Assembly (NCBI GenBank): GCA_003141245.1
Contig: PLLE01000041.1
Span: 39,029-103,028, forward strand
Direction of reading: 5' to 3'
DNA from: Chloroflexota bacterium
Lineage (GTDB): Bacteria > Chloroflexota > Limnocylindria > Limnocylindrales > CSP1-4
DNA length: 64,000 bases
Shown: piece after piece, positions 24,773 to 29,754 of the stretch
How positions within the stretch are numbered: position 1 is the first letter of the stretch
How the letters are laid out: each line of letters starts with the position of its first letter
Notes under the pieces: generated by a model
What the model was told of the DNA's origin: nothing
What the model saw: only the letters and a program-made list of their open reading frames with translations
The model's database searches: none
Program-made: the position numbers and the translations under genes

Positions 24773-24976
24773 TTTTGCCCAATACGCCTGGGTGGAGTAC
24801 TGAGCGACGGCGGGGCGCGGGGTCTACCGAGGCTGGCCGTCGTGTCAGCCGTATTCGGCTAATAGATGGCAGATCCAGATCGACGTATGGAGACGCATGC
24901 CCGTCGAAGGCGTCCGTGGCGCCCCTGGATGGACTTGTCTCCAACTCTGTACTCCGTGGGGGCGTGTTGGGGAAAA
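24773..24976 (-). mobile_element. Non-autonomous repeat element E1 (~204 bp): imperfect terminal inverted repeats, central palindrome, no transposase
   Basis: Left TTTTGCCCAATACGCCTGGGTGGAGTACTGAG; right end reverse-complemented TTTTCCCCAACACGCCCCCACGGAGTACAGAG; centre AGCCGTATTCGGCTAAT; the second copy in this window is inverted relative to it. Confidence 0.6.
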
Positions 24977-24983
24977 GCGGGCC

Positions 24984-25155
24984 GCTCGGCTCGGCTCGGA
25001 TCGCCCGGCTCGGCCGGCTCGGCTCGGCCGGCTCGGCCCGCCCGGCTCGGATCGCCCGGGCGCCCGACCGCCTCGGATCGCCTGGGCGCTCGGCTCGCCC
25101 GAGAGCTCGGATCGCCCGGCTCGGCCCGCCCGGGCGCCCGACCGCCTCGGACTGG
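24984..25155 (+). repeat. Low-complexity GC-rich array built on CGGCTCG / CTCGGATCGCCCGG
   Basis: gctcggctcggctcggatcgcccggctcggccggctcggctcgg...; cccgggcgcccgaccgcctcgga occurs twice, 74 bp apart. Confidence 0.85.
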
Positions 25156-29402: not shown

Positions 29403-29558
29403 GGCAGCCCATTTCCCCAACACGCCTGGAGAGTGCGAGCGGCGGCATCGAAACGGGTGGAGGCGACCCTTTTCCCCAACACGCCTGGGGGAGTGCGAGC
29501 GGCGGCATCGACACGAGTGGAGGCAGCCCTTTTCCCCAACACGCCTGAGGGGAGTACT
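29403..29558 (+). repeat. ~60-bp direct repeat, 2.6 copies, containing the outer end of the E-element
   Basis: Units 29403-29461, 29462-29521 and 29522-29558: GGCRRCCCWTTTCCCCAACACGCCTGGRRGAGTGCGAGCGGCGGCATCGAMACGRGTGGA. Confidence 0.9.
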
Positions 29559-29754
29559 GGGTGAGGCGAAGCGGCCCAGCGATCCCCGGCCCGGTCTCTC
29601 CGGCTGTCGCGATTAGCCGTATACGGCTAGCACTCCCTAAATCGGCGGCCAAATCTGCGTGCAAGAGCGCCTTAGGGGTGAGTCCCAACGGGTTAGGGGC
29701 GAGTCCCAACGGGGTGCTGGCGCCCAGCACGCTCCCCAGGCGTATTGGGCAATA
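29530..29754 (+). mobile_element. Non-autonomous repeat element E2 (~225 bp), second copy of the inverted-repeat element
   Basis: Left TTTTCCCCAACACGCCTGAGGGGAGTACTG; right end reverse-complemented TATTGCCCAATACGCCTGGGGAGCGTGCTG; centre ATTAGCCGTATACGGCTAGCAC. Confidence 0.6.
29672..29714 (+). repeat. 21-bp direct repeat TTAGGGGYGAGTCCCAACGGG x2 inside E2
   Basis: ttaggggtgagtcccaacgggttaggggcgagtcccaacgggg. Confidence 0.9.

Follow-up and report, generated by a model that had tools for sequence, protein, structure and literature searches.

Evidence for a dispersed, helically phased two-ended repeat linked to genes for XRE-HTH plus PD-(D/E)xK-like proteins in Chloroflexota

The current study concerns E1, an intergenic repeat in a 64,000-nucleotide stretch of DNA from a Chloroflexota bacterium (the window, meaning the whole stretch that was analysed). 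Comparison of the sequence with those of related genomes leads us to regard E1, with considerable confidence, as a gene-less dispersed copy of a two-ended, helically phased element that is linked to an XRE-HTH plus PD-(D/E)xK-like protein encoded at 1162-1917 of contig C14 in the same genome. It is also probable, at a lower level of assurance, that such elements represent a new class of selfish or domesticated system, in which an HTH/PD-(D/E)xK-like protein would recognise a dyad at the 3′ end of its own gene together with an inverted partner in helical register and would thereby seed and maintain scattered phased copies, while paralogues evolve their own specificity, gene-borne and scattered sites changing together. 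This looks like a gene-plus-repeat system of a kind previously undescribed in bacterial genomes, and no description of such a system was found in the open-access literature searched, the coverage of which was partial.

In the mechanism that we infer, binding, looping and copying would all depend on the partner protein: its HTH domain would bind the end dyads, and the two ends would be brought together on one face of the helix by a short DNA loop, possibly with the help of a factor at the internal motif. The resulting dyad-protein complex would allow a unit of approximately 250 to 284 bp to be copied to new places, perhaps via the nuclease domain, and the same complex would be what selection maintains at old places, old copies being kept because the complex is useful or because it is harmful to lose. 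If this is right, the elements constitute a repeat system that is linked to a gene and has no relation to RAYT/REPIN, and their natural spacing series, with 136 to 220 bp between dyads, is an evolutionary record of the DNA helical repeat. They would also provide a test bed for site-protein co-evolution, the C-terminal codons of the protein being the site, and for the ways in which intergenic repeats spread and persist. Several points speak against this reading: the elements of relatives in genus g5 depart from the common phase, no matching gene was found in some genomes that carry scattered elements, target-site duplications were not seen, and a PD-(D/E)xK domain by itself is not known to act as a transposase.

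Results and discussion

Elements of the window and their copies

E1 and a second, inverted copy, E2, were confirmed at the coordinates in Table 1. E2 exceeds E1 by two helix turns. The four ends were found again in the window by an end model, R2, at 24773+, 24976-, 29530+ and 29754- (E values 2.6e-10 to 6e-7), although R2 was trained on these very ends and independent support is provided by the genome search. The palindrome that the preliminary description had placed at the midpoint is indeed present and scores better than shuffled sequences in the window, as it does in most elements of ~203 bp, but it lies off the midpoint of E1 and is missing from many copies of the family. A scan of the window for family 2 (see below) and for the gene sites of G000 contigs C9 and C46 gave no match. 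Directly after E1, at 24977-25140, the window carries low-complexity repeats of the CGGCTCGG type, none of which occur in the fmt-rlmN junctions of relatives.

Table 1. Family-1 elements, end dyads and internal palindromes in the window
Feature	Position	Strand	Remarks
E1, complete family-1 element, 204 bp	24773..24976	no strand	fmt-rlmN intergenic; BLASTN and end model
E1 left end dyad	24773..24809	+	end model
E1 right end dyad, inverted	24940..24976	-	167 bp from left dyad, centre to centre
E1 internal palindrome TCAGCCGTATTCGGCTAA	24845..24862	no strand	81 and 123 bp from ends
Second tandem partial end site upstream of E2	29412..29432	+	end model
Tandem partial end site upstream of E2	29470..29496	+	end model
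E2, complete family-1 element, 225 bp	29530..29754	no strand	dtd-rpmB intergenic
E2 left end dyad	29530..29566	+	end model
E2 internal palindrome TTAGCCGTATACGGCTAG	29613..29630	no strand	92 and 133 bp from ends
E2 right end dyad, inverted	29718..29754	-	end model

Within the 2.54-Mb genome the core CCCAAYACGCC occurs 25 times, as against once for a reversed control, and a BLASTN search with E1 revealed approximately ten complete paired copies on several contigs, together with partial copies near contig ends. A model of the ends detected family 1 in 10 of the 21 genomes of the genus at E<=0.1 and a broader end model in 13 of the 21, all genomes being drafts and the copies having been found with models built from copies, so that strongly divergent families are missed. 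Outside the genus the broader model gave weak or isolated matches in the bacterial family and clear pairs in two genomes of the genus g5. The possibility, raised in the preliminary description, that only the two copies exist in the genome and none in relatives is excluded by these searches. In a tree of fmt and rlmN the carriers of family 1 form a clade of nine, to which G014 and G005 are added. Searches with the exact pattern returned two single, unpaired and coding-like matches in genome_contigs, which were read as chance, and none in viral_contigs.

A second family was met by chance at the glnA3 junction; its ends have the form TTKCCGAATTCAC-N7-CGACATTNGGCAA, and it is present in 13 of the 21 genomes, a reversed control being without match. 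Downstream of glnA3 in G016 (L214) lies an inverted-repeat pair of ~216 bp with ends like GGARATACATGTCCGACCAY, which is perhaps a third family. An inverted repeat in the fmt-rlmN junction of G016 is single-copy in that genome and was left out of the count.

Many elements and XRE/nuclease genes are situated ~30 to 350 bp from contig ends, as if the assemblies break there (for example C11, C22 and C39 of G000, C37 and C71 of G007, and C110 of G015). One gene-plus-element region was encountered in G009 (C79; L163), G008 (C26; L169) and G010 (C138; L170), identical over the compared element and flanks; the three are supposedly different species, and cross-binning or recent transfer is likely.

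Helical phasing of element length

Each family-1 end is an imperfect dyad of 34-37 bp, YACKC-N7-GMGTR, which is nearly perfect in G014. The consensus of the ends is CGCCTG...GTAGT in this genome, CGCATGGG..GAGT in the sister genomes and ACCAGTGG..GTAGT in G001 and G009, and the left and right cores of the elements differ. Family-1 elements fall into length classes of 203, 213, 224, 235 and 255 bp, in steps of ~10.5 bp, the distance between their inverted dyads being an integral number of helix turns (about 167 bp + 10.5n). This quantisation is pronounced in family 1 (n=48, R=0.861 at 10.55 bp) and in family 2 (n=40, R=0.80), neither value being reached in any of 3000 nulls, and as partners were searched for between 120 and 400 bp it was not imposed by detection. 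It holds when one value is taken per independent locus (21 loci of family 1 and 24 of family 2; in neither case matched by any of 5000 jitter nulls), and both families space their dyads at distances that agree in phase to within 0.2 bp. The internal motif, which is TTAGCCGnnnnCGGCTAA in family 1 and CTGAGCGTGGATC in part of family 2, lies at distances from the ends that, as judged by eye, step by about one turn in both families. The exception to the g1 series is provided by the g5 elements (L151-L157; G030 and G027), which are out of phase with it, all measure 157 bp and carry four palindromic sites, AACACGCC-N5/6-GGCGTGTT, 40 bp apart.

The linked gene and its protein

In eleven of the 94 element regions there is overlap with the 3′ end of a gene whose product is an XRE plus PD-(D/E)xK-like protein; the end site here doubles as the DNA that codes for the C terminus, for example WFLPNTH in family 1 and WFLPDSH in family 2. 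The N terminus of the protein is a Cro/CI-type HTH (Pfam, above cut-off). We read its C-terminal domain as PD-(D/E)xK-like and as a putative nuclease, on the basis of a D...E-x-K core, D115, E130 and K132, which are invariant in 52 proteins, and of structural modelling; Pfam nuclease matches are below cut-off. An AlphaFold model (pLDDT 89.5) matched the HTH folds of HipB and of C proteins in Foldseek, while matches at E about 1e-3 include an R2 retrotransposon protein and Can2. The gene family is present in 97 of the 107 genomes of the bacterial family, several per genome, and is not represented by a dedicated model in Pfam or NCBIfam; the present analysis offers a specific hypothesis for this common HTH/nuclease-like family. 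No member was found in plasmid and phage collections.

An inverted match of the gene's own 3′-end DNA, above 99% of within-gene controls, was found downstream of 33 of 60 genes, with about 0.6 expected (Mann-Whitney p=4e-17), in a test made without known motifs on a list in which eight loci had been chosen for already-known elements. The 34 gene-linked pairs anchored on the WFL codons are likewise quantised in length (R=0.755 at 10.45 bp; 0 of 3000 nulls). Gene-borne sites match the scattered sites of their own lineage best, as in G005, where the family-2 gene and the scattered sites both carry CGACAA, other genomes having mostly CGACAT. In some carriers of scattered elements (for example G004, G017 and G014) the family-1 gene was not found, perhaps owing to incomplete assemblies, contigs often ending near elements.

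In G011 (L145) the family-1 XRE/nuclease gene is broken into two frames and its core is lost. No family-1 copy was found in this genome beyond the one at the broken gene, which is a single case.

Gain, copying and maintenance

In 17 relatives fmt and rlmN are separated by a short junction that contains no element; nine of the 17 have family 1 at other places. Among the other relatives, the junction of G016 is long and has no family-1 element, that of G011 includes an additional reading frame, and fmt itself gave no match in G003. E1 is read as a gain that the relatives lack. In G009 the gene-borne copy on C79 and the gene-less copy on C100 agree at 270 of 284 positions (95%), the similarity ending 25 and 23 bp outside the element, and the two copies are taken to be related by duplication of a ~284-bp unit. 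The empty junctions and this copied unit support the suggestion in the preliminary description of a non-autonomous mobile element. Target-site duplications were not obvious in the flanks, and the true ends of the element are uncertain, as the copied unit extends ~25 bp past the dyads. A similar pair in this genome, on C9 and C25, shares 22 bp on its left side and carries a tandem repeat on its right.

Many elements occupy orthologous loci. At these loci conservation is higher in the ends than in the interior and near flanks, which in more distant pairs approach the identity of shuffled sequences. In alignable orthologues the length either differs by 0 to 2 bp, several of the alignments having indels that compensate for one another, or shifts by roughly whole turns; those of G001 (215 bp) and G009 (236 bp) differ by exactly two gaps, one of 10 bp and one of 11 bp. 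In most of the same comparisons the distance from the element to conserved flank varies by tens to hundreds of bp, edges that depend on BLAST boundaries. Orthologous loci with unalignable interiors could in some cases be separate insertions. An invertible DNA segment was considered and rejected, given the differing left and right cores and the orientation of alignable interiors, which is kept relative to the flanks.

Placement and a possible host function

Among the 67 elements with clear neighbours, 28 lie between convergent genes, as against 14 of 180 control pairs (Fisher p=3e-9; gene calls made by codon usage). Elements lie at a median of 77 bp from gene 3′ ends and 205 bp from 5′ ends, gene-less copies being intergenic and mostly near gene 3′ ends. 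The functions of the neighbouring genes are unrelated, which argues against an ordinary regulon, and a regulon of a promoter-bound regulator was therefore rejected. This placement, the absence of a common neighbour function and the conservation in place of ends and phase would suit a host regulatory or chromosome-architecture element, that is, a looped nucleoid or regulator complex at 3′ ends (for example a transcription roadblock, or an insulator between convergent genes) that would have the XRE gene as just one of several targets. We consider such an element unlikely as the sole explanation: a general host factor leaves unexplained why over half of the XRE/nuclease genes tested have a distinct site of their own, and E1 appears to have been gained, relatives lacking it. 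A host role may additionally be true, as the reason that copies persist.

Comparison with known repeat systems

REPIN/RAYT (TnpA-REP) systems comprise intergenic paired inverted sites and a nuclease-type gene that is adjoined by the same sites (PMC3116915). The likeness is evident in the dispersed paired inverted sites, the conservation of the sites with a less conserved spacer, and the linked gene. The present system differs in that no Y1 transposase gene occurs in the bacterial family (PF01797, 0 of 107 genomes; a control search was positive in 5 of 14 named genomes), in that the sites are duplex dyads without hairpin covariation whereas REP units fold as hairpins, in the quantisation of element length by helix turns, in the position of the site inside the gene's own 3′ coding sequence and in the protein itself, an XRE-HTH joined to a PD-(D/E)xK-like domain. 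The element thus works like REPIN/RAYT but falls outside that group on two features, the Y1 gene and the hairpins.

A conventional MITE or REPIN, moved by a DDE or Y1 (RAYT) transposase and now neutral debris in which phasing reflects transposition geometry only, would account for inverted ends in an element of ~200 bp, for the empty orthologous site, for a discrete copied unit and for the preference for gene 3′ ends and convergent junctions. It is nevertheless a rather improbable reading. Besides the lack of Y1_Tnp in the family, end matches in this genome are ~200-bp elements or partial copies, none being seen to flank a transposase gene, so that the autonomous transposon with the same ends expected of a classical MITE was not seen and the ends match the 3′ coding DNA of the XRE/nuclease gene instead. 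Debris would not be expected to preserve ends and phase in orthologues whose interior and flanks decay, and the phase would appear to be kept in place by selection.

Other repeats share parts of this arrangement. BIME/REP sequences of enterobacteria, with inverted palindromic units, a variable spacer, an internal protein site and placement at gene 3′ ends, resemble the present elements in each of these respects, although we know of no link between them and an XRE/nuclease gene and of no helical length classes. Correia repeat enclosed elements of Neisseria are likewise intergenic and MITE-like (~150 bp), with inverted ends and an internal site for a bending protein (IHF), but their ends differ from the family described here and no gene-borne copy of this type is known to us. 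The XRE fold of the partner protein is shared with the controller (C) proteins of restriction-modification systems, such as C.Esp1396I, and one of the structure matches, 3clc, is a tetramer on its natural operator; as far as we are aware, C proteins are without a nuclease domain and do not seed scattered paired sites.

End dyads as probable duplex sites

Single ends show no covariation, and complementarity between the left and right ends of an element is not above that seen when the two ends come from separate elements of one genome (permutation P 0.64 to 0.96). The ends therefore behave as duplex sites and not as paired arms, and we take them to be candidate duplex recognition sites. Although a single strand of E1 folds better than shuffled sequences (z -6.6), a structured RNA, or a bidirectional terminator, in which the two ends pair with each other is scarcely credible in view of these results, of the lack of compensatory changes seen between the two ends and of a period of ~10.5 bp, which is the pitch of B-DNA and not the ~11 of A-form RNA; the structured repeat entertained in the preliminary description is, as an RNA or hairpin, unsupported.

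The half-site GAGTGCTAA suggested an HrcA/CIRCE operator, which was rejected because CIRCE is TTAGCACTC-N9-GAGTGCTAA while the element sites have N7. A true CIRCE (N9) adjoins hrcA in L154, where it is separate from the element.
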